A stretch of 64,000 bases of DNA, from assembly GCA_008933995.1 (NCBI GenBank), contig WARS01000981.1, positions 2,046,001 to 2,110,000 on the forward strand, read 5' to 3'. Source of the stretch: Datnioides undecimradiatus (taxonomy: Eukaryota; Chordata; Actinopteri; Lobotiformes; Datnioididae). Under the pieces are notes generated by a model. The model was not told the origin of the DNA, did not search any database, and worked only from the letters and a program-made list of their open reading frames with translations. Of this stretch, positions 10,001-49,620 are shown in pieces. The first letter of the stretch is position 1. Every line of letters begins with the position of its first letter. The translations under genes and the position numbers were made by a program.

Positions 10001-10125
10001 TGGGAGCAAATTGCGTGCATGCAACAGCCTTGTGATGTAGCAAAACGTGGCTTTAATAAATTTCTTCCCTGACCATGCCTGAAAACTCCATACAGTCAAA
10101 ACAAATCTAAAAAAAGGCATCCTAC

Positions 10126-10959
10126 CTGTCCTGTGACTGCTCCTCGTACATCCTCTCCTTCCCCTCTTTGAAGAGCCGGATGGCCCGTTTGGATTTCTTC
10201 ATAAGGCTGTCGATGTAGATTTTAAAGTATTCGTTTTCACTGAGCTGTGTGAGTCTCTGGTTTTCTTCATATTTGCCCAGTATAAGCCGCAGGTGCTGGT
10301 AGGCATCAGGTAAGATATCCAGGATGTATGGTGGACTGTTTTTCAGATGGAGCCTGGGATTTTGGCAGAGGCGGACCTGCGGCAAAGAAATACTGAATGC
10401 TAGTTTGATGCTCCAACATGTACACAACAACCGAGCAGGATCAGATGGAAATTAGATGGAATCTTGGCCTGCTGTTATTATTTTTATGTGACCTCTTGAA
10501 AACGGAGCTCTCATGCAGCTCTGGTTGAAACAAACAAATCAGCCATCTGCTGTTCTTGGACACATCCTTAATGAGTTATCATCAAGTTTGACGATTGTTG
10601 GCCAGCAAAGATGGGAAGTATTAGATAGTATTAAACAAATGTCTGAATCTATCAGGCCACCATCAGTAAAAAGTGAACAGTGAACACATGCAGGCCATTA
10701 GCATTAGCTCCACCTCTCCATGTGCAACGACAAAAATGTTCCTACTACCATCTGGCTGACAGGCTTGACGGGTTAATCACTCCAAACTTACAACTTTATC
10801 CATGAGCTTCCAGGTTTTCTCCACAGTCCGCCGGTCAGCAGCTGCTTGCTTCGGTGGCCCCACTGCATCCTGGATGGCATCGATTAAGCCTAAAATACGA
10901 CCCTTACTTCGGTTTTGTCCACGTCCGCCAGGGTTTCGCCCACTAAGAGCAGTTGCCAT
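10126..10959 (-). CDS. cblb: CBL-B E3 ubiquitin-protein ligase, N-terminal two coding exons (partial)
   Basis: Coding exons are 10959..10792 (56 codons, phase 0) and 10376..10126 (251 nt, ending inside an Arg codon). The first reads [20 protein letters not shown], then a stretch containing [20 protein letters not shown] and ending WKLMDKV. The second starts [20 protein letters not shown] and ends with [20 protein letters not shown] then DR. This matches the four-helix start of the tyrosine-kinase-binding domain of CBL-B; the GRNPGGRG opening and [12 protein letters not shown] separate it from CBL. CBL-B ubiquitinates activated receptor and non-receptor tyrosine kinases and dampens lymphocyte signalling. 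Splice sites are canonical: donors GTT|GTAAGT and CAG|GTAGG, acceptor GCAG|GTCC. The first coding exon extends as leader to 10969, where an acceptor (CTCAG|TG) implies an untranslated exon upstream. The SH2-like part, RING finger and proline-rich tail lie beyond the left edge. Confidence 0.95.
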
Positions 10960-10969
10960 TTCCTATACA

Positions 10970-17429: not shown

Positions 17430-17562
17430 GTGTCAACCTGCCTCATTCCTACAGATCTCCAGAGAGTTTACCACCTCAGCAGACCAGCACAGCACTCTCT
17501 CAGATGACTTCCTAAAACGTGTGTTGTCTTCTAGGTCTTTACAACTTTAACAAGAGCACACG
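17430..17562 (+). other. Probable untranslated first exon of the giant coiled-coil gene
   Basis: A strong donor (GCACACG|GTAAGTTT) ends at 17562. The coding exon downstream begins with an acceptor at 18033/18034 (pyrimidine-rich tract then ACCAACAG|AGCAAAG), 22 nt before its ATG, so a spliced leader is expected. The upstream boundary is a guess. A CCAAT-like sequence lies at about 17,384-17,388. The intron would be 471 bp with nothing else visible in it. Confidence 0.5.
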
Positions 17563-18055
17563 GTAAGTTTATTTTATCCTTCAACATGATTTTGTTGTGT
17601 TGTCATGGGTACTGATATGGATTATAGCAAGCAGGAGATTGATTTTGTCCTCATAATATGTACATGTATTTATTATGTCTACAAATTGCAAGTAAACATT
17701 TCTGCCAGTGATGTGCAGCTCCTAAAGAAAACAAAAACATCTTTTTCAGTTGTACGCTTAAAAGATTAGGTCTTAGCAGTCTGTGCAGATGACTCTGAGA
17801 AAACATAACTGCACACATGGAGAAACTTAAAGAAAACAAATCAAGCATATGAAATAAAAACAAGAATGGAATAACATAAAATTGAAACTATACAAGAGCA
17901 ATATCCACTCATACACACATAAATGCCTACTGTTTTAAATCAGGCCAGAAAAAAACCCACCACATCATATTGTAGATTATGATCTGCAACATAGATCATC
18001 AAGTGATATTCTGTCTGTTTTCTTGACCAACAGAGCAAAGACAACAGACAACAGG

Positions 18056-19882
18056 ATGACCAAAAGAGAAAACGAATGGACAATGGAAAACACCATGCAG
18101 TTAGGAGACAAAGAAACACAAATATTAAAAACCACAAGGGAGTGTATCAAAAGACAGAGACAATTGACATGTCAAGTATTGGAGGAGATTGAACAACTTT
18201 TGGAAGAGACACAAAGAGAGAGGAATGAAACTGACTACCTTAAGAGAAAGACGGAACAGCAACAGGAGGACATTCACAAACTGGAAGCTGAAAAACTTGA
18301 GCAGTGCTTGTTAATAAAAAGACTGAAATTACAGATAGAAAATGTTACTCAGAAACTTGTGAAGAATAAAAATGAAGCAACTCAAGAAAAAATCCAACTG
18401 CAGAACTTGTGGGCTGAGATAGACCGAGAGAGGGAAACTTTGGACAGAAAACGTAATGAGATTATGAATGAGCGGCGCAATTTGGAAATGATAAAGTACG
18501 ATGAAACAAAATCACTTAAAAGTGAGGAAGCCAAAGAAGTGATGGATCAGTCACAGCACTGGCAGGATACGAAGGAGAGGCTGATGGCTGACAGTCTGCT
18601 CACTCTAATGGACAAAAATAAGAAAATAATGCTTGAAATGAAGCAGGTAAAGGAACAAATGGAGAAATATATGGCAGACATAAGGCAAGAGCTAGAGAGA
18701 AATAAAAAGAATATAGAATATAGAATATATAGAAATCAAATTGAAAACATCAAACATGACATGAATGTAAATATTAACAAGGTGAAGCAATGGTGGACAA
18801 AAATTCAAAGAGATTTTCAAATGCAGAAAGACACAGTCCCAGAAGTGGAAAGACAGAGGCAAGGACATGACACCTTCAATACTGTGAAGCTAAAACTCTA
18901 CAGAATCCAGGAAGAGATGGAGAAGCTTTGGGATGAGTTGGAAGACAGTGAACAACAACTGGACTCTCAGATGGAAACACAAGACAGAGAGATGAAGCTG
19001 GCACAGGTCAATATGGAAAGAGATGAGATTGAAAGAATGAAAGCTGAAATTCAGACAGAGAGAGAAAACACTGAGAGGGACAGACAGTTAGTGAAAGCAG
19101 AAATGGATGCATTGAACAATATGAGGGAGAGCACTGAAAGGCAAAAACAGGAGCTGGATGACAAGTTACAAAGAACCAAAAAGGAGATTAGAGAGATGGA
19201 AGTGATGAACACTGAGATTGGAATTAAGAAAAATGAACTGCTAAAAATGATGAGAATGAGCAGAAGACAAAAGGAAGAGATCAGCATGATGAGGGCTGAG
19301 ATGGAACATGCTCAACAAGACATCGAGGAAAGACAGGATAAGAGTCAGGGGCAAGGGGTGAACACTGAGGGCAGGTTTGATGAGCAGAAGATTATGATCA
19401 AACAAGATGACAGAACCAGAGAAATGATACAACATCGAGAGCGTCAGTTTGAGGAAGACAACAAGGAAACAAGCACCGAATATGAAATGAACACTGGCAT
19501 GCAGGGAGTGATTCTTCAAATAGAAGATATCAGAACGATGCTGCGTAGGGTCAGAGAAAACACTGAGGAAAACAGGAGAGATGTTACAGAAGAAAAGAGT
19601 CAAAACAAATGGATGAATTTTCAAGCCAAGAGAAAGGGACGGGTGCTTGACCAAAAGCTGGAGAAGACCATGAGAGAGAGGGACGAGGTGGAAATTGCAA
19701 AGATAAAGATACAAAGACAGAAGGAGGAGTTTAAACAAAATCTGTCAAATACAATTCTGACAATGGGTGAGATGAAAGCTAACTTAGAAAGAGTGGCTGC
19801 AGAGATAAACAGTGCCCGGGAGGAGATGCTCAAAGCACAAAGGAAGATGGAGGAGAACAAGGAGAAAGTAAAGAAACACAAG
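18056..19882 (+). CDS. Giant coiled-coil protein, coding exon 1 (609 codons)
   Basis: Translation most likely starts at the ATG at 18056 (MTKRENEWTMENTMQLGDKE). The open frame extends upstream only to a TTG lying in the intron side of the acceptor. The exon ends at a consensus donor (CACAAG|GTAAGT) after exactly 609 codons, phase 0, and joins 21689. The residues are almost wholly charged or polar (E, K, Q, R, N) with Leu/Ile/Met at heptad spacing: one long coiled coil without signal peptide or folded domain. Near its end (about 19,633-19,733) is a module reading VLDQKLEKTMRERDEVEIAK, which recurs three times in the next exon. An intron-retained reading would add only 27 residues before a stop at 19,966. 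The gene runs opposite to cblb, ska2, tiprl and riox2. I do not recognise the family. Automated labels such as 'trichohyalin-like' would reflect composition, not homology. Confidence 0.85.
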
Positions 19883-21688
19883 GTAAGTGAATCTGTGGTT
19901 TCTTTTTTCAGTCTGGTCTACTTTTTATTCTTGAGTCAAAGTCAACAAGAAGATGTTTCCAGGTGAAATGCACAGGTGTATTTAATTAAATGAACAATGG
20001 TTTGTTTCCTTTTAACAGTAACAGGATCCAGGTATTATCTTGGGATGATTGAATGGACCCGCGCTGTCAGTAATGTTGTTAGCTGAGCCTGTGCTTTTGT
20101 TAGCATAACATGTCAAAACGTCTGCTGCGACAAAAGATCTTCATTATGTTCCTTGCAATCATTTCATGTTATAGTGTTTGGCTGTTAAAGATGATGAGGC
20201 AACATACATCAAAGTGCTGACTGTCAGTTATCACCAGTTCTCAGCAGAATTTGTGATACCAACAGAATCATTTGAACTATGCTACAATCGCACAGAATTT
20301 CTATATGTGCTGGCTTGTTGGATTTTTTACTTTGTTGTCCTGCCCTAGTTACATTCTGCTCACAAAATGACATTAAAAACTGACTATATGCAGATGTGCA
20401 ATTGTTTTCTATTTCCAAAGTTTATTAACTGGACCCTGATTTCCTCTTTTTAACTGAGAAGTTCATTCTCTGTGTATACATGCTGGAAATTTCAAGTTTC
20501 CACATCACTATTGAGCTTTTAGCTTGAATTGCTGAAGGAATGCAGCACTTGTACTAAGACTATACTTAAAGTAACTTGGCCCACAGTCAGTCAGGACTAT
20601 TATGAGTCAACATGGGCTTAGCTCATAGACTGGAGATATTCTCTATGTTCAGTTACTGACAGTTATTGTCAATAATTCCGTGAGAAGACCCAAACCAGCA
20701 ATGTGTTTGTCAGTCTCCTATACTTTTTGAGTTTCCCTCCCTGTCCTTCAGCTCTCATGTGCTAAGGATATTGGTTCTACTAAAGACAATTATGGGAGAT
20801 TTTGCCACAGGGCTTTCTGCCAGACAGGTCATTTCAACAGAGACCATGCAAGGAAGGAGGAAACAGAGGAGCTCTGTGGCATCAGGTTTTGAATGCACAA
20901 ATAATACCTGTAAGGAAGGTAATCAATGTTGGTTTAGGGCTGCACATGAAATAGGGTTATAGCGAGAAATCACTTTGGTGATTGATGAGGCCTCACTTTC
21001 AAAAACAAAGTAGAAAGTCCTTACAACAGAGTTCTAGAGCCGATAATGTAGAGATCCCAGAGTAGCTGGAACTGTTTTACTGTAATGTCAGCACTTACAG
21101 ATGATGATAAGTATAATGTTTTAATTACCTAAAATACAATGTAATGGTTTACTCTGGTACTTCAACAGAATTTGTGTGTGCAAACTACTATCATACATGT
21201 TTTACTTTGTAATGTTTTCACTATGCTTATTCTTACTTAAAACAGAGTATTTAACAGTCTGGTTATATAATGTGGGGCATGTTTGTGTAGATGCTCTAGA
21301 AGACTCACAAAAAACTGTTAACTCACTCCAGTGATGTGTCTATGAACCATTTTAAGCCTTACAGACATATAAGGCTTTTTTAGGAGCTAACCATGGCATG
21401 ACACCCTGTCTCACTCTCTCACTCAGGCAGCATGTTTCAGGTAATGTGGGGCAGGTTGGAAAAATGGGATGGCCCTTCTTAGATAGAAAAGCAGGCTTCC
21501 TTGCTACTTAGCAAATGTAAACCTTTTATTAAACAGGAAGCAGTTGCCATGTAATACAATGTATACGCATATTATTGGGCCTGTTAATTTTAAATATTTT
21601 GGCACTATTAGCCATTTTAGTTTGAACAATGTAACACATCACCCAACCTTTACTAGCACTTACTTAGTCCTTTTTTTTTTTTGCAAAG
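19883..21688 (+). other. Intron between the two large coiled-coil exons
   Basis: A 1.8-kb intron with donor AAG|GTAAGT and acceptor GCAAAG|GATGTG, preceded by an uninterrupted T tract (about 21,671-21,682). Both ends are phase 0, so the joined protein reads ...KVKKHK then DVLSSMKARVSK. I see no further exon, repeat family or RNA gene inside. Confidence 0.75.
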
Positions 21689-24600
21689 GATGTGCTGAGT
21701 TCCATGAAAGCTCGTGTCAGCAAATGGCTTACAGCAGAATCTGCAATCAAAAAGACTTTTTCAGTGAGTATATCTGAACTTCAAGAATTACAGAGAGAAC
21801 CACACAGAGACTCCTTCAAAGATCAAACAACTGAAATTACAACAGACCAAGAGGGGGCAGAAGATGAAATGACAAAAGATGCCATGTCTTTGCAGCTATT
21901 TCTAACATTAGAGGATGAGCATCAAAGTGAAGACATAAAAACACAGGAGGATATGCATTCAGAGGTCACCCAGAGACAAGAACTAGATTTTTTTGCAGTG
22001 GATACAGGGGAAGAGCAGAATGTTTTCCTACAGATGCTGACAGAAATTCATGAGGAAACATCAGTGGATGATGATCAGACAGAATTAGCAAGTGTGAGCA
22101 AAAACATAAAAGTGGAAAATCAGATATCCAAACTCAAGGAGAGGGAGAGGAAAATAAGGGAGGAAATAACGAATGCAATGAAGAACATGGAGGAAAAAAA
22201 TCAAGAGATTAAAAGACTCATCATGGAAATAAATTTCCTGCAGAGACAGAGACCAGAAACTGAAACTGACACCAGTGTTTTCAAACATAGAATAATTAAA
22301 TATGAAGAGAAAGCGAAAAAAGAGGAGGGTGAGGATACGATAAAACAAGAAGCAACTGATGAGAATGGCTTGATGACACTGGATGTTAGGAAGCAAAAAC
22401 AAAGTCAGGAGTCAAGAGAAGATCTACAAATACATGTTGAGGAGATGGATGAAGGATCTTTTAAAACAGACACATGGAGTGCTGATATACAAAGACTTAG
22501 GGCAGAGATTTATAAAACACAAGAAATCATAAGACTACTGAAACCAGAACTTGAAAGCCAGGGTGAAGGAAGCAACATCAATAAGGACAATAAAAATGAA
22601 GACAGTGAAATTGAGGCACTGCTAAAAGACATGGTGCAATTTCAAGAGCATTTGAAAATGGTAAATACTGCAATGAGGCAAAGTGAACTGCGACTGAAAG
22701 AACAAATGACCAACATGAAATTCACAAAATTTGTAGCCAAAAAACAGAGAAGAGAACTGAATCAGAGGTTAGAGAAAACTTTGAGAGAGAGAGATGAATT
22801 AAATATTTTGAAAATAAAAATGCAGAGACAAACTGAAGAGACTCAGCAGAAGTTAGAGAAAATGTCAAATCTTAAGCGCACCATGGAGAAAATAGCTGCT
22901 AACATTAAAAAGAAAAGAGAAGACATTGAGATCAATATGGAGGACAGCAAAGTTAAACTGACACAGTTCAAAGATTTGTACTCTACAATTGAGGCTACAA
23001 AACAAGAACTGGAAAACAGCTATCTTTTAATATCCCAGGAAAGAGCTGCCTTTGTCAGATTAAAAACTGAAATCAGGCAGCAAAAGGATACTACTGAGAA
23101 TGAGAACAGAGGCATAAAGAAACATGTCACATCTGCAACAAAGGTAGAATGGGACAAAATGATAAAAAACAGAATGGGCAAAGACATGGAGGAAATGGAA
23201 AATGAAATTGTCAAACTCAAATTGGAAAACGAAAAACTGGAGAAGTCCATAAAAATAATCATGGACAGTTTGGATCAAAAAAATGGTGAAGTTGAACAAC
23301 TGAAAAAGGCAGAAAGAGAAGAGATTGAGATGCTGAAACAACAGATTCAAGCAGAGAGGGAGAATGCAAGAATTGCAAGCCTACACAATGGGACAGAAAC
23401 ACAGGACATCCACTGTTTAATGGAGAATATTGAAAGGCAGAAATCAGAGCTTGAGGCCAGAGAGTGCACAATCAAAAGAGAAATGAGCAAAATGGAGGTG
23501 CTGAAGTCAGAGCTTGAAACAAAGAAAAAAGACAGTGAAGAACTAATTAGAATTAGCATAAGGAAAAAAGAGGAAAGTGAAATAATGTGGAATGAAATAC
23601 AAAGAGAAAAGGAATTACTGAAAAGAGACACAAAAAAGAGAAGGAGGGAATTAGACCAAAGACTGGAGAGAACCATGAGAGAGAGGGATGGGTTAGAATT
23701 GCTGAGGATAAAACTACACCGACAGGCTGCAGAGCTGGCTGAGGAGAGGCAGAGTATCAAAGACAAGACTCTAAAATCTGAAATGGTACGCTGCAGCTCA
23801 AAAGTCACCAATTCCATTAGTGACCTTCAAAACACAAGAAAAAAGATTCATGAACATTTGGATACAATTAGAAGGGAATTGGGAATTCTGAAAAATGTAA
23901 ATGTGCATTTAGAAAAACAGATAGAAGACGTCAAAACATTAAAAGCTGAAAATGGGACTTTAAAAGACAACATGAGCAGAATAAAGTTACAGATAATGAG
24001 GGACTTTAAGGAAAAAGGTATACAAGCAACAGCTGATAAGGATAAAATGTGTCACATGTGGGATGACATTCAGCAACAAAAGCAGCAGCTTGAAATCAAA
24101 CTAGAGAGCATTAAAAGAGAAATAAGAGAAATGGAAGTGTTGAAGTCTGCCTTGGAAATTGAAAAAAGAGAAAACCAACATTTAATCCGAAAAGGCATTC
24201 GAAAAGAGCAGAAAGTCAAGAATATGTGGGCTGAGGTCAAAGAAGAAAAAGTTGCCCTGAAGAGGGAGAAGAAGAAGAGGAATAAAGAGCTTGACCTGCG
24301 ACTGGAAAGGATTGTCAGAGAGAGGGATGAACTAGAGATCACAAAACTAAAGCTGCAAAAACAAATTGAAGTTGAAATGACAGTTGGGGGGAGGTCAGGA
24401 GTCACAGAAGTTCTAAGTCAAATTCAAAAGCCTTGGGGACAAAGTGACATATATATGGAAAAAGATAAACATGACATGGACAGTGCTGAAAAGGATAGAC
24501 AGGGGCTTGAAAGTGAAAAAGATAAACTAGAAGGAGCTCTGTCTGTGTGGAAAACAAGGAAAGATCAAGTGCTCAGTAACATACAGACTCTAAGAGGCAA

Positions 24601-24952
24601 GCTCAAACATCTGAAGGAAAAGACATGTGGAGAGATTCAAAACAAAATAGACAAATTAGACTGCAAGAATCAAGATGTGCAAAGACTGAGTCTTGAATTG
24701 GAGCAAAAGCTTAAAGGCTTTGATCAAGATAGAGACCAACTGCTGGGCTACAAGACGCTGATACAGAGAGAAAAGGACGTTCTGAGTAGTATATTATCAG
24801 ACATGGTCACGCAGAGACAAGACATGGAAAATCAAAGGAAGCAAAATCTTCTGTTGGAAAAACAACATCTTGACAAACTGAAGACAGAACTGATGCAGGA
24901 GGGAGCAGATGGGGATAAAGTGAAGGAAAAGATGAACAAAGACAGTGGCTGA
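21689..24952 (+). CDS. Giant coiled-coil protein, terminal exon, frame-intact first part
   Basis: The frame entered at 21689 stays open for 1,087 codons to a stop at 24950-24952. The product is again a near-continuous coiled coil. It holds three diverged copies of a module of roughly 100 residues. Each copy has a core like RRELDQRLERTMRERDGLEL, at about 22,744-22,850, 23,641-23,740 and 24,277-24,370; two of them are preceded by REMSKMEVLKSELE / REIREMEVLKSALE and a 'MW-E' segment. The core also occurs once at the end of the previous exon. A short region before the coiled coil (21.8-22.1 kb) is acidic and less regular. The terminal stop (reading MNKDSG then stop) falls where the 126-bp array begins and is caused by an indel relative to other array copies, so it is probably not the true end. 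Confidence 0.8.
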   Translation, partial: DVLSSMKARVSKWLTAESAIKKTFSVSISELQELQREPHRDSFKDQTTEITTDQEGAEDEMTKDAMSLQLFLTLEDEHQSEDIKTQEDMHSEVTQRQELDFFAVDTGEEQNVFLQMLTEIHEETSVDDDQTELASVSKNIKVENQISKLKERERKIREEITNAMKNMEEKNQEIKRLIMEINFLQRQRPETETDTSVFKHRIIKYEEKAKKEEGEDTIKQEATDENGLMTLDVRKQKQSQESREDLQIHVEEMDEGSFKTDTWSADIQRLRAEIYKTQEIIRLLKPELESQGEGSNINKDNKNEDSEIEALLKDMVQFQEHLKMVNTAMRQSELRLKEQMTNMKFTKFVAKKQRRELNQRLEKTLRERDELNILKIKMQRQTEETQQKLEKMSNLKRTMEKIAANIKKKREDIEINMEDSKVKLTQFKDLYSTIEATKQELENSYLLISQERAAFVRLKTEIRQQKDTTENENRGIKKHVTSATKVEWDKMIKNRMGKDMEEMENEIVKLKLENEKLEKSIKIIMDSLDQKNGEVEQLKKAEREEIEMLKQQIQAERENARIASLHNGTETQDIHCLMENIERQKSELEARECTIKREMSKMEVLKSELETKKKDSEELIRISIRKKEESEIMWNEIQREKELLKRDTKKRRRELDQRLERTMRERDGLELLRIKLHRQAAELAEERQSIKDKTLKSEMVRCSSKVTNSISDLQNTRKKIHEHLDTIRRELGILKNVNVHLEKQIEDVKTLKAENGTLKDNMSRIKLQIMRDFKEKGIQATADKDKMCHMWDDIQQQKQQLEIKLESIKREIREMEVLKSALEIEKRENQHLIRKGIRKEQKVKNMWAEVKEEKVALKREKKKRNKELDLRLERIVRERDELEITKLKLQKQIEVEMTVGGRSGVTEVLSQIQKPWGQSDIYMEKDKHDMDSAEKDRQGLESEKDKLEGALSVWKTRKDQVLSNIQTLRGKLKHLKEKTCGEIQNKIDKLDCKNQDVQRLSLELEQKLKGFDQDRDQLLGYKTLIQREKDVLSSILSDMVTQRQDMENQRKQNLLLEKQHLDKLKTELMQEGADGDKVKEKMNKDSG

Positions 24953-26660
24953 TCTGGGAAAATGATGAGGATGACATCCAAAGACAAACTGGAAATATTA
25001 GAACAAGATAAAGAAGTTCCTACATGATGAAAAGACAAGCTGGAAAATGACAAAAGTGGAGCTCCAGAAGAAGAAGGAACATGCAGACAATCTACTTGAT
25101 GAGATAAACAGAGGTTCGGACTGCAAGATGGCTCTTCAGCTCAGTCAGATAGAGAGATAGACTTGGATAACGCCAAGAACACCATTACATACAACAAAAA
25201 GAACAAGAACTCAAGAAGAAAAGTTCAAAAGCCAAACAGAAATACTGAAGGCAGAACTGACAAAAGAGAGAGAAGATCTACAGAGGAAGGAGAAGATAAA
25301 CCAAGACAGACTAAACTTGGAGTTGATAAGGTCTGACATCCAGAGACAAACCTAAAATATTAGAACAAGATAAAAAAGTTCTAAATGATGAAAGACAAGA
25401 TTCGATAGGGGTGAAAGAGAAAATGAACAAAGATAGCCTTGGATCTGGAGCTGTTTAGACTGACATTCAGAGACAAACTGAAATATTAGAACAAGATAAA
25501 AAAGTTCTAAAATGACGAAAACACAAGATCTGATAGAGGAAAGAGAAATGAACAAAGACAGGCTGGATCTGGAACTGATGAGGATGACATCCACAGACAA
25601 ATTTGAAATATTAGAACAAGATAAAAAGTTCTACATGACGAAAGACAAGATCTGATAGCGTGAAGGAGAAGATGAACAAAGACAGGCTGGATCTGGAACT
25701 GATGAGGATGACATCCAAAGACAAATCCGAAATATTAGAACAAGATAAAGAAGTTCTACATGATGAAAAAGACAAGCTGGAAATGACAAAAGTGGAGCTT
25801 CAGAAGAAGAAAGAACATGCAGACAATCTGTTTGATGAGATAAACAGAGAGAAAACCATCATCAAAGACGGCTCTTCAGCTTCAGTCAGAAAGAGAGAGA
25901 ATTGACAATGTCATGAACACCATTGTCCTACAACAAAAAGAAAAAGAACTCCAAGAAGAAAAGTTCAAAAGCCAAACAGAAATACTGAAGGCAGAACTGA
26001 CAAAAGAGAGAGAAGATCTAGACAGAGTGAAGGAGAAGATAAACCAAGACAGACTGGACTTGGAGTTGATGAAGTCTGATATCCAGAGACAAACTGAGAT
26101 ATTAGAACAAGATAAACAAGTTCTAAATGACAAAAGACAAGATCTGGATAGCGTGAAGGAGAAGATGAACAAAGACAGCCTGGATCTGGAACTGATGAGG
26201 GATGACATCCAAAGACAAACTGAAATATTAGAACAAGATAAAAAGTTCTAAAACGACAAAGACAAGATCTGGATAGCGTGAAGAAAGAAGATGAACAAAG
26301 ACAGTCTTGATCTGGAGCTGTCGAGGACTGACATTCAGAGACAACCGAAATATTAGAACAAGATAAAAAGTTCTAAATGACGAAAGACAAGATCTGGATA
26401 GAGTGAAAGAGAAAATGAACAAAGACAGGCTGGATCTGGAACTGATGAGGGATGACATCCACAGACAAATTGAAATATTAGAACAAGATAAAAAAGTTCT
26501 AAATGACGAAAGACAAGATCTTGGATAGCGTGAAGGAGAAGATGAACAAAGACAGGCTGGATCTGGAACTGATGAGGGATGACATCCAAAGACAAACTGA
26601 AATATTAGAACAAGATAAAGAAGTTCTACATGATGAAAAAGACAAGCTGGAAATGACAAA
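24919..26660 (+). repeat. Coding tandem array of 126-bp units (42 residues, six heptads) with higher-order structure
   Basis: The anchor ATGAACAAAGAC (or ATAAACCAAGAC) recurs at 24932, 25296, 25423, 25548, 25672, 26039, 26165, 26291, 26415 and 26542, with an isolated copy at 27307. Short spacings are 127, 125, 124, 126, 126, 124 and 127 bp; long ones are 364 and 367 bp. A cycle is one long unit followed by three or four short units, giving higher-order periods of 740 and 870 bp. The consensus short unit encodes 42 residues, starting like VKEKMNKDSLDLELMRDDIQ and continuing RQTEILEQDKQVLNDKRQDL. Because 42 is six heptads, units can be added or lost without breaking coiled-coil register. Confidence 0.93.
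24953..26502 (+). pseudogene. Frame-disrupted part of the giant coiled-coil exon
   Basis: The sequence clearly encodes more array units but no single frame stays open. Open pieces include 25660..25905 and 25913..26251 in different frames. The breaks are almost all single-base gains or losses, many in homopolymers: GGATGAC against GGGATGAC, GATCTGATAG against GATCTGGATAG, CTTGGATAG against CTGGATAG. Substitutions between units are few and the frame is clean for 2 kb afterwards and 5 kb before. This pattern favours consensus errors in a repeat that short reads could not polish over genuine decay, but sequence alone cannot settle it. From 21689 to 28557 is 6,869 nt, two more than a multiple of three, so the net error is a frameshift. 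Confidence 0.65.
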
Positions 26661-28557
26661 AGTGGAGCTGGAAAAGAGGAGAGAACGTGCAGACAACCTG
26701 TTTGATGACATAAACAGAGAGAAAACCATTATCAACGATCTGACTCTTCAGCTTCAGACAGAAAAAGATCATGCTGACAATGTCATGAGCATGATTATTT
26801 TGAAACAAAAACAAGAACTCCAGGCAGAAGAGCCTGAACGAATAAAACACAAACTGGAAAACACTAAAGACAATTTGCTCACAGAAAGAAAAGGACTGGA
26901 AGTTTGGAGGAAGGATCTCAGCAAGCAGGACGAAGAGCTTGAAGATGCCATTAACAGCATCAGTGTAGAAAGAGAACAAGTTACTCAAATGAAAAGTGAC
27001 ACTGAGAAGCAGAGAGAAATGCTTTTGAAAGACAAGGACAGAATAGAGGACAAAATGTCTGAGCTTCAGATGAGAGAACATCAGTTCATGAATAAAATAA
27101 AATCAGTAGAAACTCTGAGGGTAAAACTTAAACAGCTGAATGAGTGCATGAGTCAAGACGTGAAAAGCAAAATGGACAGTCTGCAACAAAACACTGAAGC
27201 TCTGCACATGACAAACACTGTCATGGAACAAAGGTTTGCAGAACTTGACAAACTGAAGGCAGAACTGATGCAGGAGAGAGAAGATCTGGACAGAATTAAA
27301 ACAAAGATGAACAAAGACAGCCTGGACCTGGAGTTGATGCGGTCTGACATCCTGAGACAAACTGAAATATTAGAATTAGATATAAAAGAACAAAAAGACA
27401 TTTTGAAAATCCTATATACAAAGCTCCAAAGTAAAAAAGAAGACACCAATGTTGACAATATGAACCAAGAATACGAAGAACTTTATCAAATGGTGAGAAC
27501 TTTTCAAATGAGGAGGATGGAGCTGACAGTCAAAATCGACCGGCTAACCTATATAATGAACCGCATGGGAAGTCTAAGAGCTCATTTCCAGGAACTGAAC
27601 CAAAAGACACATGACTATCTTCAAAAGACTATAGATAGATTAGAGCAGAATAAACAAGATGTACACCAATTGACATCATTATTGAGAATCAAGCATGAGG
27701 AACTTAACAAGAAAAATAGGATTACCGGTTATATTAGGCTGATTTCCACAGAGAAAAAACAAGCAATGACTGTGAAGTTTGACAGTGCAGTTCAAACAGA
27801 AGTTGCAGCAAAAGAATGGCTGCAAGAGCAACTTGCCAAGAAGCATGATTTGAATAAACTCAAAATGTTTAAATTTGACAAAGATGTTACATGGACAGAT
27901 GCAGTCACCCAGACTGAATATGAACATCAGCAGAAGTTAGAGGAAGACAAAAGCGCAAAACTGTCAGAGTCACTGGCAGTGCCAGACACCAGAATGTCCA
28001 AAAAAGATTGTTTGAGAAACATCTGGAAAGACACTAAAAGGGATCAGAGCGAGATTGATCACATGAAGAGCAGGGGTCATGAGTTGAGAAACAATCTGGA
28101 GAAAAGACTAAAGGTGGTCAATCAGTTTGTTAAGAGAACATGGTTACAGAAAGAAAAGGAACTAATTGAGAGAACAACCCTGGAACAAAGATTAAATATG
28201 GATAGGATATCTCAAACTACAGTCAAGAGTGACCACAAAACACTCAGTGAAAAATATGCAGAGCTACAACAACTGAAGATTCAGATGCTCAGTGAAATTG
28301 AGAAACTCTGTGTCAAAACACAAGTGTCCGGCACACTGTCGACTAGTGATGAAGCAAATCAAACGTTCCAGGTGGGTAAAACCACAAGGGATGCAACAGT
28401 GCAGGTAACGGAGCATGCTTCTACTGAAACATATCAAGAAACCAAAGCTGCACCAGAGACATCCAGTGGACTCCTCTGTCAGCTTCGGCATTACTGCTAT
28501 CGTTGCTGCTGCCCTTGCTGTGACTGCTGTAAGCAAGTATGCCCAGAAGAGAAATAA
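26503..28557 (+). CDS. Giant coiled-coil protein, C-terminal part with cysteine-rich end
   Basis: This frame is open for 684 codons and, from about 26,530, continues the array reading (MNKDRLDLELMRDDIQRQTE) into unique coiled coil. The nominal start at 26503 is only where the frame opens, not a real initiation site. One more diverged array unit lies at 27,283-27,390. Heptad spacing weakens after about 27,750. There the protein carries three related short motifs: DSAVQTE, TDAVTQTE and RDATVQVTE; the middle one contains TQT, the core of dynein light chain LC8 binding sites. It ends QLRHYCYRCCCPCCDCCKQV then CPEEK, with eleven cysteines in the last 27 residues, which suggests palmitoylation or metal binding. 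No zinc-finger spacing is recognised. If joined with the preceding segments the protein is about 2,900 residues from two coding exons. Confidence 0.8.
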   Translation: MTKDKILDSVKEKMNKDRLDLELMRDDIQRQTEILEQDKEVLHDEKDKLEMTKVELEKRRERADNLFDDINREKTIINDLTLQLQTEKDHADNVMSMIILKQKQELQAEEPERIKHKLENTKDNLLTERKGLEVWRKDLSKQDEELEDAINSISVEREQVTQMKSDTEKQREMLLKDKDRIEDKMSELQMREHQFMNKIKSVETLRVKLKQLNECMSQDVKSKMDSLQQNTEALHMTNTVMEQRFAELDKLKAELMQEREDLDRIKTKMNKDSLDLELMRSDILRQTEILELDIKEQKDILKILYTKLQSKKEDTNVDNMNQEYEELYQMVRTFQMRRMELTVKIDRLTYIMNRMGSLRAHFQELNQKTHDYLQKTIDRLEQNKQDVHQLTSLLRIKHEELNKKNRITGYIRLISTEKKQAMTVKFDSAVQTEVAAKEWLQEQLAKKHDLNKLKMFKFDKDVTWTDAVTQTEYEHQQKLEEDKSAKLSESLAVPDTRMSKKDCLRNIWKDTKRDQSEIDHMKSRGHELRNNLEKRLKVVNQFVKRTWLQKEKELIERTTLEQRLNMDRISQTTVKSDHKTLSEKYAELQQLKIQMLSEIEKLCVKTQVSGTLSTSDEANQTFQVGKTTRDATVQVTEHASTETYQETKAAPETSSGLLCQLRHYCYRCCCPCCDCCKQVCPEEK

Positions 28558-28625
28558 GAAACATGTTTTTAGCATCAATATTAAATATAGTTTTCTACTT
28601 AAAACTATCATGCAGGACATTCATA

Positions 28626-28631
28626 AATAAA
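28626..28631 (+). terminator. Polyadenylation signal of the giant coiled-coil gene
   Basis: AATAAA lies 69 nt after the stop codon ending at 28557. Further AATAAA sequences lie near 29,270 and 29,410, so a longer 3' end is possible. Confidence 0.55.
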
Positions 28632-31504
28632 TGAACATCTGTTACATTCCGGAGCACAAGTAGTAATGCTTCTGTGTAGTGGTGGCTAGAGTGGACACAG
28701 CTGAAGGGGGAAGTAACTGCAGCAACAAAGTGGGTTGGCCTCTAGAAGCATAGTGGAGCCTGTTGCATCATTAGCATGTCAATGATGTTCATGTCATTAC
28801 TCTTACTGCCAGACAGGTAGAGACAAAAGTCATGCACAACAGTTTGACTTGTATTTGGCTTGTAATACAAAATAGCATAGCATGCTTAGAAATTTGGAAT
28901 TTATAAGAATTGTATTGGTGAAAACACATTATATTTTGGTAAACCATAATGAGAGCTAACCAATGAGAAATTAATATAATCATTTGAAATGTCAAGGTAT
29001 TTCTGTTGATCAGAGATCATGTGTGTGGCTTGTGTAAGTCTTCACTGGCTATTGCAAAATGCATAATTATATTTAATAGTTTACCAGACTATTGTGAGTG
29101 CTATATTTTCAGTCTGCAATTTCCGATTTAAACCTCAGCCAATCATATTGCAATATTAATCATAGTGCATTAAGTATTTATCAGGAGACCTTTTTTGCTG
29201 TTGTTGCTGTGTTTGCCTGCTCATCTTCTCATTTCATTCAGCTTTTTCTGTTGCCATGTAAGAAAGTTAAATAAAATATTTAGAAATGGACAAAATGGAA
29301 CATCTATGAATTCCATAAATTACTTTAACCTGTGAAAGTTCTGCACAAGACAACTCTTTCCAAATGTATGTGTTTATTGCATTTACTTATTTAACACACT
29401 TTTCTTTTTCAAATAAAATTATCTGCATTTTTACATTATCGAGTCAGCATATTTATTTCCTTGTATTCCAGAGGATGTGGTGGCCCCACAGCACAGGAAG
29501 TTGTTTTGATGACTAATTTATTAACTCAGATCTCTCTATGCTGGCATGCGGTTACAATTTCTGTTAATTGAATTTCTTGTCTGTTATCAAATCAATGAGT
29601 ACATTGAACTGTATTGAGTGCCCCTATGCCTTGTCCAACAAATTACATTCATCTTCAAATTGTCTCTGCTATTTGGAGATTTGCCAGGACCTGAGGCCTG
29701 AGTCTCAAAGCTGCGCGTGACCAGAGTTGTGTTATTGTTATTTGACTGTGCAGTGCAGCACACAGAGGGGGTCAAGGTGTCACCAGAGTTCAGTTATTGC
29801 ACACCACTGCCACCTGATGGACAGATATAGTTACATCTCATTAAACTGTGTTTTGATTAAAGCTTGTCAAGGCTAACACAAAACACGTAGTCCTGTGTTC
29901 TTACTTCTTAGCTTCTTTTTTGCTGACTAGCGAGATTATGTTGTTGCCAGTTATCTTGGTGCGTACCACACATAACACTGCTTACAGTAAAGCACTCTAT
30001 ATCAATATTCAGGGATATTTTTCATGACAAAGGGCATCAAAATAACATTACGATTTGTCCCAAAATAATTAACTTATTTAACTTGTAACATGTAAATTGA
30101 CAGTTGAGTGAATGTGCATTTAAAATTCTATAGAAAGACTGGATATAAGTGAGAAGTGACGATTTTGGGATCCCCATGTGTTCCAACCTGTCATAAAAGC
30201 ATGCATATCAACAAGCCAGGATTGGCATTTTTAAGGTGTCAAAGCAGTATGATTTGAAGGTGGCACTGGGAGATTCCATGGGGTCCAGCTGCAATGCATT
30301 CTAGCCTGACACAAGAAACATGCTTCTGGTAAAACTGTCATGAACATGTCATGACTGTCAGCATGTAAACTTAGTGCGAGGTAATGCAGTTTGAAAAGTA
30401 ACTGAAAATAAACCATATAAACATTCATATTGATCAGTACTGACTGTAATAGTGTAACGCCACTATATCTGAGTGTATTAAAGGTACATGCAGATGAACC
30501 TTAACAGCATGTAATGCATTTGAAGAAGCAACCCAACAGATTGAGGAAGGGGGAAGATCGGGGATAAAATCTATTTTGTGTTGCTGCTAATTTTCTGTGT
30601 CTTGACATGATAAACATTGCACATTATCCAGTCATTACTGCTTGACATTTGAAAGGAATGAACCCCAAACGACAATTGGTCTAAGTCTACGTTTGCTTTT
30701 TGGAAGGATAAACACCGCCCCTGTATTACTTTTAGACAACTGAGCTCACAGAGGTCCCGTGTTTTGTTTTTTTTTTTGCATAGTTTAGAGTTACAAATTG
30801 CACCATGGTATTCTGATGTCAAAATGTCTACAGGTTGGCAGGTCCAGTTAGTTTGCCTAAATAAAAAAAAAAATTCTTACTTTTCACTGCATTTGTTGTT
30901 TTTGTCCAGGTTTTAAGACATCTGACTGATACTTTTTTTGAAATTGTGGATTTGATCAAAGATCATTCTTCTTGTAAAGTACTGACAGAACAAATCAAAT
31001 GTACTTTTGAAGAAAAGAAATGCAAAATAGTAGGCAAATATTTGAGCTTTGTAGCAGGTCCTGGAGGGAAACTCAAGACGCAATGGATTGGATTTTGGAC
31101 ACATGGGATAAAAAAATTCAAGTTCTCCAAAAAATATTTTCCGTCGGTTCCACAGTCTGTAAGTAAAGGACACAAACAGCCTGAGCAGTTTTACATTCTC
31201 TCGTAACAATTATGATTACCTTCAATAACTGCCTCAGAACTATGTTATTATTTCCATTATAATACCTATGCACAGATCCTTCTAGAAAACTTTCAGGAGG
31301 TAATTATGGACCAGTAAAAAGTTTGTTCATAAATTATAAAATACTAATTAAATCATGTTTTTAATACAAACTGAAAAAAATGAGGCCTACACATGGAGTA
31401 CTAGCTGCAAACAGTGTGTTTATTCTTCTATGGGAACAGGACACAAGGACTAAAGAGCATATGCAAAGATACTTAGAAATAATTGATGTGTTAACCAGTT
31501 TGAG

Positions 31505-32584: not shown

Positions 32585-35311
32585 TTAAGGTTCCTGGCAG
32601 CTGACTGGTCTTACCTCTGTTGCGGTTTCAGTGAAAGCTGTACCCAGGAGCTCTGTTGATTGCTGAACCGACTGCGTTAGTGGCTGAACCTGCAGGGTGT
32701 AAACAAACAGTTAACACTTTGAAAGCAGGAATTCAAAATATATTTCTGTATTAAGAAATGCCACTGCATGTTTGAATTAAAGTGCAGAGGTTGAACATTT
32801 GACACTTAAATGCCACATTTCCCAAATCCAAGCAAACAGCATACATGCAGCCTATGCATGAAGGCCTATTGGACTTCTGAAACCTTAATAAATGACCATT
32901 GTTAGATCTGACCAGACCAATCTGGTATCACATGATCCATTTTTTATCTTAGTTGCTATTTGCTCACACGCTGTAGCCTCTGTCAAGTTTTGCTGAATAT
33001 TCACATGTGACATGAATCAAAGTTTAGATGTTAAGGTAAACTGATTACCTGATGATGTTATGAATCCCATGTCATAAAAGGCTCTAAATTTGACGCTGTC
33101 ACAACATAAAAGTAACTCAGGTGCTCATTAAAATATGATCCAGACATGTATAATTACTAAAACATTATCAAATGAAGTGCAGGTCTGTGTAACTACTGGA
33201 AACAACAGTTTGGACCAGTACTGCACAAGATGTCTGTCAGGTACAAGCTACAATGAGAATAAAGCAATTGCACCCCTGTTGCAGACAGACAGCTGTGGAA
33301 AAGTGAGTGAGAGCTGATGAGAGGAGCGCTGTGAGAAGTTTGTTGTTTTGGGGGCGAGTAACTGTAGTTTAGTGTTCTCTAACAGATCAGTAACATTGGT
33401 TCACATTCAATTCAATGAACTGTGGCAACAAAGTGTGACAAAAAACTTCAGTTAGATAAAGACATGCTGCACAACTTCAGCAACTTCAGTTGTTCAAAAG
33501 AGAAGAGAAAAAAGCTTAAGCACAACTTTCTGAACAAAAATGCAACATGCAATCATAATGTTAACAACCCTGGCATTATAACTATAGTGAAAGACCATTA
33601 AACAATAGTCTGACATGCTCTCCTTGTATAAAGTATTAGAACATAAGCTGGTGTTTAAACAGCAAGCGTACCTCCACATCAGTAGTCTGTTGAAAGTGTT
33701 GGATCAGCTCCATCACATTGCTGAGGTTGTTTCTGATGGAGTCCATGGACTCTTTCTGTGCAGCTGCGATTTCCTTCACTTGAGAGCACAGCTCTGTGTG
33801 TTTGGCCCTGATGGCCCTCAAGTTCTCCAGCATCACCGCCGGGTTCTCCTGCAGGCACAGTGTCAATCATTAGCCTGTAAAGACACAATGTTTAAGCATT
33901 CAGCCTCATTTTTTTGTCACTTGACCTTGTATACTGATACCTGTGATGTCTTGTATGATATTATATTTTATGTATTAAAAAACAAGAACTGAAATTTTAT
34001 AAGTGTGTTTCAAAACATATGTCACAAAACCTACCTCAACGAAACTGGGTTTGTTATTTAGGCTCTTATTCATCAGTAGCAGTCAGTAAAGGACAATAAA
34101 TATTGTCCATCCAATACCTGATACAATACAACTCAACTATAGTAGCTACTTCATGCTCAGTGCAGAAGGTGTTCAGCTGCTCCTGTCTTTAGTTGTGTAA
34201 TATATTAGGAGAAATAACAGCAGTGGTAGTTCAGCTACAACCTCCGGAGAACATCCATTCTCTGCAGTGTTGTTGATGAAGTCCAGCTTCAGCCGCTTCT
34301 CTATGTATTCCAGGTCTGCCTCCGACTTCAGGAACTGCAAAGACAATCAGCTTTACGCTTTGCTAATGCATTGGGAAATTTGCCCTGCTTTAGCAGTAGT
34401 AGTTTCAAACTGTTTTGATGAGTCTTATCATGTTACCATCTGGAGTGAAGAACAAGTGCAAACAGTAAGTTAGCAGCCAGCAGTGACTGAAACACATTAT
34501 GTATTGTTAATAACTGGATTAAACTGTTGAAATTGTGCCCCTCATTCTCCATCAGGTCCTGCCATGCTCCATCTATGGACAAAATCAAATATAACTATAT
34601 TTTTGACCAAATATGTCAACATCAGCATTATGACAATATTGTAGGGACAACATTGACTACTGGTGCGTTCACAAAATATTTACATGATGGGATTTGTGAT
34701 ACATATTCATCAGTAATGTGGATATAATGGCTACAGAGATAAAGGCAATAATGAAACAGCTACAACAGTTTGGTAAAATCATACCACTTTACTGTTATGA
34801 AACCTTTAAAGGTCAAGACAAGACAACACCCCCTAGAATCTAAGATGATATATCACACTATGAACACACACTCTAGAGCTGTAAAGGTAGTCAACGCAGC
34901 TGGTATCTGCAGTTTTCAGATGCTTTGACAATACTATTGCACTGCTAGCTGTCTGATACAGTAGTGCAATGAAGTCAGAGCACCTGCCAACAGCTGGAGC
35001 ATTTACTTCACTTGTCACTATTTCTGACCAATGCCCTTTTAACATTGCACTGCTTTTCTAGCAGGGTCACCAGTAGTACAATATAAAAGGGGCACTGGAC
35101 AGACAGTGGACTATCTTAGCTGGTCTTTTCTGTGGCTCAGTAAGGTGTCAATGTGTAGTACGTCATATCAACTATATCCTATTTGTGATGACAAATGGCT
35201 GTATCAAGTGTGCAAAGATTTCTTATTTCTAATTAGACATGATAGCAACACATCCTTATGAAAGGCAATGTTGGCCGCTTGGTTTACCACTTTGGTAATC
35301 ATTAACATTTC

Positions 35312-37910: not shown

Positions 37911-40900
37911 TCACTGAGGGACGTCATTAACAGCTGTCTGAGGCTGCATCACAGGAAGCTCCAGCTTCTCACACTCTGTCAGCTTCAGGGTTAAGTGCTG
38001 GGCGATCTCATTAGGATCAGTGTACAGTGCAGCGGGAACATTCTGAAGGAGACAAGCATCTCTGTTAACAATAATTTAAAAACATTATAAGATGTAACAT
38101 ATTTAAGATATTTATCAAGGGTGTAAATGTATATTCTGTAAATAAAGACACTGCATAAAATCTGGATATGAACAAGTTTAGATATAAAATTTAAAAAAAT
38201 GTTATGTGCCTGTTTGTATAACAAACAAATCCATCTCTGATTTGAGGTTGGCACCCATCACCTTCAAAACTATCACTTCAGGCATCGGACAGTCTAAACC
38301 TGGAGGACAAATTCATTGTGTAGAAATGCTGCTGCAGCTCTTCCACCGCTTAGACTTAATGTCTGAATCGTAGCCGGTGATGAGCCTCCACATGAAGACT
38401 GGGTTTGACACAAATTTTGATGTTTGCTCTCTGCTGAAGTTTAAAGTCCATGGTGACAATGAACAAATGCACACAAAGGAGGCTATTTACAGTAGCATTC
38501 TGTAAAAAAGAATCCAGGTTGGAACCACTTTCATGAACACAGTCATTCATACCAGGTGTAAATGAAAGGAATCATTTGGTTTGTGGAGCTTGCAGGCAGC
38601 ACAGCATGGCATGACAGAAAGCACTGGTTACAGTCAACACTCAGGGCAAAAAAATAAAGTTTCATTTTTGATTTGCTAGTTAATCCTGCTAATTTGCTTT
38701 ATTTTAAGATTGCTATATTCTAACCCCTGCCTAACTGTGTTCCCTCTTGTCTCTTCAGCAGCTCAAACAAATCATCCATTTTTGTCTTTTCATTTCTTGA
38801 CGTGTTTAATTGTTAAAGATATAAAACTGTAGCATATCTACATTTAGCTAGAAACTCTGCAGTACAATCACTAACAGGGCACGCAGTCTGCAGTCAGTCA
38901 CTTTCTGACCACACCATTTCAATTTGCTTTTTTCTATGTGTTAAGCTAAGTGAAAAAGTGTGGTTTCATTAACCAGCGTGATGAGCCACTCAGGAGACTG
39001 GGGCTCCTCAAGGTTGACCCATGTGGAGACTCCAAAAATAAACACAGTATGGTTCTCTCATTACTGAAAATCCTAAAAAAAAAAATACAAACATTCTCCA
39101 CAACTGCAAAACTTTTGCTCCAAAATGAATAAATGTGCAAATTCAGTGATTCTTTTTGCCCTTAATCCTTAATTAGCCAAAAACACATAACTACACAACT
39201 CACCTTCAGCTCTGCTATTTTGCTTTCCCTCGTGCTGAACTCTCTTAGCATGTAATTCTCTCCAGCCTGGAATCAAAACAGCAATTCATTACTCATTAAA
39301 GTCTCCAGCCAGTGTGGATTTACATGTGATTCGTTTATTATGAAAACCTGTAAAAATCAACTTGCCTCATGATACAGTCGTGTGTCGTTTATTCTAATCA
39401 GGACCCCGTCCACTCGTAGGAAGAAACGCATTAACAAGAAAAAACTGGTGGGCATCACCCTCTGCATCATCAACAGACATACAGCAGCATGTGTTCAGAC
39501 TGTTGCATGTCACATTATATTTTGTCAGTATAACAGAAATACAAAGAGCAGAGTCAGTTAGGATGCACTGCATGATCATTTCTGAGCTTGGAGTTTCCAA
39601 TCAAATACCACCACTGAAGATTGCCTGTTGATCTGTTATTTCCAGATTGCACCTGTGGGACAGTTTCAAGAGCTCACTGCAGTATGACTGCCTAATCTCT
39701 ATGCAGTAACGTAACTATGTGGGTGTAGTTGCTGCAAAAGAGGGCTGGGTTCCCTGGAAAAATGAAGGTTTAAAATAAATGTGCTGATGCCTCAGACTGT
39801 GGACAACAAACTGAATTTAAAGCTCATTTAAATAACAACAGCAGTTTTTTTAAAAACAAAACCAGCACTCACAATTTTCACACTGATCATTGAGACTCCG
39901 TGGTCATGCAGCTCATCCTCGAACAGCAGCACCTCATCGAAGAACATGATGTGTTCTCGAGCCTTCAGCTTCTCCATGTCGATACGTTCTGTCGTCTTAG
40001 TCACCTTCAGATGAACAACAGGTTGAAATGAAACACAGAAGACAAGCTGACACGAAATTGTTCTCCATTTTCCACAGACATTTTGACAACACTGAATACG
40101 AATGTGTTGATGATCCTCTGTTCCTTGCCAAAACTGAAAATGACCCACCTCTATCTGCATACCATCTCCTATCAGAGAGCCTCGGTAGTCTGTTGTGTAT
40201 GTCCAGTCGTAGGGTTTCACAACCTCTTTTGAATGTTCAGAATCGGCTCTGGAAGGAGATCACGAGGAGATTCATGTTAACTCCTTATCGGGCAAGTGAC
40301 CATATTTGAGCACTTGCACGCATGTTGAAAAATAATTTTTTTTTCAAAATGTTACAAAAGTAAAATGGTCATGTTATGTGCTCCAACAACACTCTGGGGT
40401 TGAAATTTTGAATTTACAAGTGTTTCAAAAGGGTTAACAGTGGAAATGAGTTTCTTTTTATTTCTACAAATTAACTATATTTACTTTATTTTTTACAAAA
40501 TGAAAATGTGATTTTTTTAAGACTGGTATAACAACAACAACAACAACAGATATTAGGAGGAAAGGTTTAGTTACACTTAAAGTAAGACAGTTAGTTGTGG
40601 TTGTTTTGTCTCTGCTGGCAGCCCCATGAGTGTGTATGTGTGTGAGGAGCTGAGCCCTGCCCCTGGTGAAAGAGAGCCAGTGAGAGCAGAGGACAGAGAG
40701 ACAGTGTGACCATGAACAAACACTGGATGGACCCTCCGTGCAAAAACTATAAACATTAATGCAGTGATTCACATTAAGTCAGGACCAGTGGAGTCTGTGC
40801 AGCCATCAGCAACTATCGGAACAAGGTGCTGATCCTCTGTTTTCCATTTTATAACACATGAAATCAAAGCATTGATCGGTTTTCACATGTACAGTATGGG

Positions 40901-41811
40901 TGAGTTGAAACTGTGTAGACTTCCTGTGTAGTCATTTTGAGCATCCAAATGGAACATGAGTTTGTGTGTGTCAATCAGGGTCAATCAGCAGGCTGTGATT
41001 TCTATTGCTGTCACTGTCTGATTGGTTAGCCGCAGCTGTCTTTTGACATATGACATGTAACAAAGTGATGGTCCAGCTGTGGCCAACAGTGTCATGCTAA
41101 TCTTGCCTGCTCTCCTGCCATTCCTGAGCGCAAGCCACCTTGACAGTGTCCTCCATGTTGTTGACTCTCTTGAGGGCATCGATGGCGTTGAATTCGATAC
41201 CGTAGCCATCTGTGTGTTGGATGCGCAGGACATTGTCCCCAAACAGCATCTCGGGAAGGGACGGCATGTTCATCTCCTCTGCTAACCTGGAAAAGGTAAA
41301 CGGCAAACAGCTGGATGACTTTTATCTTAAATCAACTCTGAGTGTATAATGATTGCTCCGAGCATATGCAGGGTTTTCCACATTTATCTTGGCTCATGGG
41401 CTGCTTTGTTTCGTACTTATATATGTCATTCGGTTCAGTTTCCTAGTTTCTGTCATGCACTAAAGAGCATCCCGTCTGTCCATAAACACTGTGAAGGCTT
41501 CACTGCCCTTCTCAATCACACAGTTTGTGTTTTATTGGACGTCAAATGTGATTTGTTGTTGGGCTTCAAGTCAAAAAACTTGTGACTCCTCTTACTTTCT
41601 CTTGGAACCTGTCATCTTAAACAATGTTGAATGTCAACCTATGTGGGGAACCGGAATTCAACCCCAGAGCAGTACTGAGCTGTGCACGCTGAACGAGAAC
41701 ATCTCACCGTTCGATGTCTTTGGATTTCATGATGTGGTTTTTGGCAGCAGTCACTTTCCATGGTCCAAAGGTGAAGTCCTGCTTACTGCTCTTGAAACCA
41801 TGTGACATCAT
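37911..41811 (-). CDS. tiprl: TIP41-like protein (PP2A-family phosphatase regulator)
   Basis: Seven coding exons: 41811..41708, 41286..41107, 40248..40149, 40004..39873, 39461..39366, 39266..39204 and 38042..37911, together 268 codons plus stop (human TIPRL is 272). The protein reads [20 protein letters not shown] at the start, then [71 protein letters not shown] and [18 protein letters not shown], matching TIPRL end to end. TIPRL binds catalytic subunits of PP2A, PP4 and PP6 and regulates their assembly and activity, downstream of TOR signalling in yeast Tip41. Two introns use GC donors: CAG|GCAAGA at 41107 and GAG|GCAAGT at 39366. No other reading keeps the conserved sequence. The ATG chosen matches human MM; an in-frame ATG seven codons upstream (MFASLST) is possible, as the exon starts near 41,836 at an acceptor. 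Confidence 0.96.
40531..40549. repeat. Short ACA trinucleotide run
   Basis: About six ACA units immediately upstream (genomic left) of tiprl coding exon 40248..40149's flank, in an intron; minor. Confidence 0.7.

Positions 41812-44956: not shown

Positions 44957-49620
<4,664 letters not shown>

Follow-up and report, generated by a model that had tools for sequence, protein, structure and literature searches.

A coiled-coil locus on the + strand of a 64,000-nucleotide (nt) stretch of the genome of the fish Datnioides undecimradiatus (assembly GCA_008933995.1, contig WARS01000981.1, positions 2,046,001 to 2,110,000; hereafter the window, whose own numbering is used throughout) is a genuine protein-coding gene. 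Its product, of roughly 2,900 residues only if a tandem array inside the gene reads through (609 codons plus 6,869 nt), carries a strong but interrupted coiled-coil signal. The gene probably comprises a non-coding exon at its start, then an exon of 609 codons, then a giant last one. On the anatomy of the predicted protein we tentatively propose, with rather less than even confidence, a C-terminally lipid-anchored, dimeric, jointed rod that would act like a golgin tether; we infer its dimerisation, its membrane attachment and every functional step of that mechanism.

Coding capacity is indicated by three stop-free blocks of 609 codons (18056-19882), 1,087 codons (21689-24949) and 684 codons (26503-28554), whereas simulation (first-order Markov, 300 runs for each block) never gave open runs longer than 136, 179 and 146 codons, respectively. 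Because the observed runs far exceed these maxima, chance is excluded and the blocks are coding. The parts of the gene are as follows, with splice sites (marked by a slash) scored by simple consensus counts devised for this analysis.

17480 to 17562, + strand: possible non-coding first exon, its 5' end picked by eye; donor ACG/GTAAGT at 17563 (8/9)
18034 to 18055, + strand: untranslated 5' part of exon 2, following the acceptor CCAACAG/AGC (acceptor scan)
18056 to 19882, + strand: coding part of exon 2, 609 codons; donor AAG/GTAAGT at 19883 (9/9), phase 0
19883 to 21688, + strand: predicted intron of 1,806 nt, if the acceptor T12-GCAAAG/GAT at 21689 is used
21689 to 24928, + strand: first open block of exon 3, frame 2, 1,080 codons to the first parsed frame change and open to 24949
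24929 to 26523, + strand: frame-broken repeat stretch of 126-nt units and a longer interspersed unit, with 15 parsed frame changes
26524 to 28554, + strand: last open block of exon 3, frame 1; stop TAA at 28555-28557
28580 to 28631, + strand: two poly(A)-signal hexamers, at 28580 and 28626 (pattern scan of 28501-29200)

The donor of the possible first exon would pair with the acceptor TTGACCAACAG/AGC at 18034, and an in-frame TAA lies upstream of the exon 2 coding start, at 17936. The 609-codon exon drawn in the initial annotation is borne out by its open frame and its donor. The phase-0 junction from 19882 to 21689 proposed there keeps its phase but is not unique, since AG sites at 21668, 21896 and 22034 also lead in phase 0 into the same exon 3 frame. 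The same annotation had given exon 3 as a single exon of about 6.9 kb, and as one unbroken open frame this is rejected: frame 2, open from 21668, ends at a TGA at 24950-24952, frame 1 is open over 26503-28557, and the frame is broken in between. The best frame-aware parse of 21689-28557, scored with the gene's own codon usage, contains 17 frame changes, of which 15 fall within 24929-26523 and two in the last 150 nt.

Tandem Repeats Finder reports a row at 25282-26638 with a period of 126 nt, 10.9 copies, 73% matches and 8% indels. The 126-nt unit equals 42 residues or six heptads, and a longer unit also recurs, at 24988, 25724 and 26594. The frame breaks are most likely consensus errors of the assembly within a repeat, and not the signs of a dead gene, because substitutions among the copies respect codons while gaps do not. 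When six short copies, which are not independent of one another, were aligned to the in-frame copy 26102-26227, the 48 substitutions were distributed 13/6/29 over codon positions 1/2/3, and 19 of them (40%) were synonymous; of every single change possible in that copy, 18% would be. All 22 gap runs in these copies were 1 nt long. Substitutions that respect codons together with gaps that ignore the frame are the expectation for an unpolished long-read consensus in repeats. The longer copies weigh against this explanation, as their gap runs were not purely of 1 nt (11 of 14, 3 of 5 and 13 of 16 in three comparisons). A recent pseudogene or polymorphic null, in which the frame changes are real, would account directly for the 15 changes that the sequence shows within 1.6 kb. 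It is disfavoured because 609 and 1,087 open codons precede the repeat stretch and 684 follow it, so that exon 2 and both flanking exon 3 blocks are stop-free, and the pattern of substitutions and 1-nt gaps in the six short copies also speaks against it; we regard it as very unlikely. The dense 1-nt gaps at 24929-26523 probably indicate that the long-read consensus of this assembly was left unpolished, and similar errors may affect further coding exons of this genome that are rich in repeats.

By a COILS-type score, with an approximate table and approximate Gaussian parameters, 66%, 65% and 47% of the residues in the three blocks reach P 0.5; 30 residue shuffles per block gave means of 17%, 11% and 9%. 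The listed gaps of at least 14 residues number 18, and six of them reach at least 50 residues (53, 104, 135, 69, 168 and 77). The first 135 residues of exon 3 are acidic and not coiled, and the coiled coil of the last block is broken at residues 398-565 and 601-677. The 'nearly uninterrupted coiled coil' of the initial annotation is not borne out by these fractions and gaps, and its continuous rod of about 400 nm is an upper bound that the interrupted profile does not support. An AlphaFold model of 26527-28554 from one sequence (mean predicted local distance difference test score 61.6, predicted template modelling score 0.26) consists of long helices, five of about 90-130 residues (2-99, 103-206, 211-303, 309-438 and 492-597) and one short (464-475), and is of low confidence and largely non-helical around 439-491 and 598-676.

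The protein has arisen by internal duplication. It contains four copies of a module whose pattern is LDQ(R/K)LE(R/K)TMRERDE, in all of which RERD is invariant, and residues 518-609 of exon 2 align with the region of copy 2 at 43% identity over 92 columns (E 7e-13).

19604 to 19882, + strand: LDQ-LE-RERD module copy 1, exon 2
22715 to 22975, + strand: LDQ-LE-RERD module copy 2, exon 3
23474 to 23842, + strand: LDQ-LE-RERD module copy 3, exon 3
24119 to 24379, + strand: LDQ-LE-RERD module copy 4, exon 3

The case for a membrane anchor comes from the extreme C-terminus, which is unusually rich in cysteine (Cys).

28471 to 28554, + strand: last 28 residues, 10 of them Cys, with the motif CCCPCC (Cys count compared with shuffles)

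A run of 25 residues in this tail contains 10 Cys, compared with at most six in 2,000 shuffles, whereas exon 2 and the first exon 3 block, 1,689 residues together, have only nine. According to a review, the identical six-residue motif CCCPCC occupies positions 184-189 of PLSCR1, which was no longer palmitoylated and went to the nucleus once the cysteines of the motif had been replaced by alanine (PMC11854935). The likeness to PLSCR1 is confined to this motif, and no Pfam match to the scramblase family was found in the three blocks.

Near the same end lie three motifs resembling binding sites of the dynein light chain LC8 (DYNLL). The source of the loose motif (PMC3078936) places LC8 sites in disordered segments, which often have coiled coil next to them.

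27790 to 27798, + strand: LC8-like DSAVQTE, VQT core, at the low-confidence end of a predicted helix
27907 to 27915, + strand: LC8-like DAVTQTE, TQT core, in a predicted disordered linker
28399 to 28407, + strand: LC8-like DATVQVT, VQV core, in the predicted disordered tail

In the C-terminal region, the LC8-like form [DS]..[TVI]Q[TV] was observed three times against 0.42 in block shuffles (P 0.01), and a stricter form with [DE] at +2 twice against 0.09 (P 0.003). Similarly, [TVI]Q[TV] occurs four times in the last 270 residues, where 0.63 would be expected from shuffles (P 0.001). DSAVQTE and DAVTQTE both fit the core [TVI]Q[TV] with an acidic residue at +2, and only DAVTQTE of these two falls in predicted disorder. 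Like multivalent LC8/DYNLL clients of the ASCIZ and GKAP kind, the protein has several TQT-type cores close to its C-terminus and adjacent to coiled coil, and two of the three fall in predicted disorder. Unlike the natural motif, these putative sites are without K at -3.

Taken in sequence, the proposed mechanism would run as follows. Two chains would pair as coiled-coil dimers with flexible joints, LC8 dimers would clamp both chains together close to the C-terminus, at two or three sites of the TQT type, and S-acylation of the Cys tail would hold that end on a membrane. The rod would then project into the cytoplasm and, golgin-like, capture or space another membrane or the cytoskeleton, with the array serving as a length-variable spacer that could grow or shrink in whole six-heptad steps. 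The 'tether or scaffold' of the initial annotation is a reasonable working idea for the putative function, and the Cys tail, the LC8-like motifs and the predicted disordered linker make it more specific.

Several observations weigh against this anchored, clamped rod. Both the LC8 and the Cys motifs were picked once the sequence had been seen. No match to the full consensus [DS]K.[TVI]Q[TV][DE] was found, K at -3 being absent, and the bare core [TVI]Q[TV][DE] reaches only 3 against 0.67 over the three blocks (P 0.03), with one instance in the coiled coil of exon 2. DSAVQTE falls within the end of an AlphaFold-predicted helix, in a model built from a single sequence with the template modelling score given above. 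Metal binding or disulfide formation could instead explain the Cys tail. Further, the codon-composition parse favours frame 2 for the last 47 codons (frame changes at 28414 and 28556), which would give a hydrophobic tail.

The metal or disulfide option belongs to an unlikely, though far from negligible, alternative: a long cytoskeletal, kinetochore or centrosomal coiled-coil scaffold without a membrane role, in which the Cys tail would be a metal-binding or disulfide element. Many such proteins share its composition and interrupted coiled coil, and the weak sub-cut-off Pfam matches of the modules include CENP-F_leu_zip, CENPU and HAUS6_N. It is opposed by the position of the 10-Cys tail with its exact CCCPCC, at the extreme C-terminus where golgin anchors sit, in a protein in which Cys is otherwise scarce.

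The frame-2 tail raises a different alternative, which we consider quite improbable, namely a tail-anchored protein whose true C-terminus is the overlapping hydrophobic sequence FGITAIVAAALAVTAVSKYAQKRNKK, reached by a short intron or one more sequence error. The best 16-residue hydropathy is 0.5 in the Cys frame, 2.3 in frame 2 and 2.0 in frame 3, so that values fitting a golgin-type transmembrane anchor occur only in the overlapping frames and not in the continuous one. The preference of the codon-composition parse for frame 2 is in line with such a tail, and giantin, golgin-84 and CASP carry C-terminal transmembrane domains (PMC4707255). A donor CAG/GTGGGT at 28372 with an AG ending at 28447 or 28456 would define introns of 76 or 85 nt into frame 2, but the pyrimidine tracts of these acceptors are weak (6/16 and 5/16). 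The Cys frame is favoured as the selected one because of a recoding simulation: when the Cys tail was recoded synonymously (3,000 times), frame 2 was at least as hydrophobic in 12% and frame 3 in 4% of cases, whereas when the frame-2 tail was recoded in this way 5,000 times, frame 1 never came out free of stops with 10 or more Cys. Apart from this comparison, the strong donor at 28372 and several AG sites (28372-28482) make up a candidate optional intron of 76-111 nt. Its use could give the protein any of three ends: the Cys tail, one that is hydrophobic and resembles a tail anchor, or a short one rich in leucine.

As to relatives, Pfam returned no family at E 0.1 for the three open blocks, including no GRIP domain and, in exon 2, no EF-hand or S100 family. 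PDB sequences gave nothing for exon 2 or the first exon 3 block and, for the last block, one designed four-helix bundle (E 0.051), which was judged too weak. A profile of the module matched an AI-designed TIM barrel in the PDB at E 1.5e-4, and this was rejected as too weak, with none of the stretches passing alone. Single modules against Pfam gave 15 families over four modules at E up to 1, all below the cut-off and none common to two modules; the best of them, pAdhesive_8 (0.009), and the others, among them CENP-F_leu_zip (0.032), CENPU (0.049) and HAUS6_N (0.077), were likewise rejected as too weak. Of the three blocks, two were used in contig scans with six short seed peptides each: the last block in IMG/VR, where 16 stretches matched, and the first exon 3 block in GTDB, where seven did; neither scan confirmed a relative. 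Within the window, tblastn with the blocks (E 1e-3) found matches only inside the gene itself. The 'unknown family' of the initial annotation therefore holds within Pfam, PDB sequences and one scan each of IMG/VR and GTDB, where no convincing relative appeared. Among titles and abstract openings, no literature on this kind of gene or on its synteny was judged relevant. A zebrafish locus name first taken for that of a coiled-coil gene was dropped, as it is listed under sarcoplasmic reticulum (PMC9748118).

The nearest anatomical comparison is with golgins, which are described as anchored by the carboxy-terminus, predominantly coiled coil and predicted to be extended, with GRIP a feature of only part of the family (PMC4707255). 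The present protein is predominantly coiled coil by the fractions given above, its last block lying just under half. Like golgins and giantin (GOLGB1), it is very long and mostly coiled coil with breaks, and its C-terminus is possibly directed to a membrane; giantin also falls in the same size class of about 3,000 residues. It differs in having no GRIP domain by Pfam, few exons, and an anchor that would be acylated Cys and not a transmembrane helix. The protein is at most a candidate golgin, which resembles the family in anatomy. Trichohyalin and other S100-fused genes have a similar plan of non-coding exon 1, coding exon 2 and giant repeat-bearing exon 3, but the exon 2 found here has 609 codons and no EF-hand match, and an S100-fused protein was rejected.

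An even chance is given to orthology with a known tetrapod coiled-coil gene, or to membership in an expanded teleost 'golgin subfamily A member 6-like' or 'trichohyalin-like' family, either of which would be compatible with the other readings. Many fish coiled-coil loci carry golgin A6-like or trichohyalin-like labels. Against such a relationship stands the few-exon structure, unlike the many exons of giantin. One table entry names a zebrafish transcript 'Golgin subfamily A member 6-like protein 22' (PMC6047052), which is in its favour.

The surroundings of the gene contain the following matches.

10125 to 10451, − strand: Cbl_N (Pfam)
33639 to 33866, − strand: SKA2 (Pfam)
34909 to 34992 and 35023 to 35103, − strand: precursors of the mir-301 and mir-130 families, adjacent to the SKA2 exon
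39831 to 40259 and 41100 to 41321, − strand: TIP41, two stretches (Pfam)
47531 to 47905, − strand: JmjC_2 (Pfam)
55254 to 55685 and 62565 to 62807, + strand: bHLH and PAS domains (Pfam)

The Cbl_N, SKA2, TIP41 and JmjC_2 matches all lie on the − strand, in agreement with the earlier placement of the coiled-coil gene on the strand opposite to these neighbours. Two of the ten neighbour stretches submitted (10780-10962 and 30865-31203) had no Pfam family at E 0.01, and 48525-49037 had only a sub-cut-off PEPcase match and was presumed by eye to be RIOX2. Some of the neighbours are tentatively named as CBLB, RIOX2 and a SIM gene; the bHLH and PAS exons of the SIM-like gene (55254-62807, + strand) share the strand of the coiled-coil gene. 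In humans, miR-301a and miR-454 lie within an intron of SKA2, and the mir-301 and mir-130 precursors beside the SKA2 exon fit a vertebrate SKA2 locus. The mir-130 model also passes on the + strand, at 35022-35105.

The broken frame of the repeat stretch may lead automatic annotation of this assembly to split the gene or leave it out. In its fullest form, which we hold to be very improbable as a whole, the proposal would be of a fish-only, lipid-anchored giant rod that LC8 clamps close to its base. Its reach would evolve through the gain or loss of exact six-heptad units, and its anchor would be switchable between acylated Cys and a hydrophobic tail through the optional 76-111-nt intron at 28372. 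If the gene is intact and its tail acylated, the protein would tether membranes over a very long reach by means of a lipid anchor, as opposed to a transmembrane or GTPase-bound one. If true, the exact six-heptad spacer array would offer a natural test of the tuning of tether length by whole-heptad tandem duplication.

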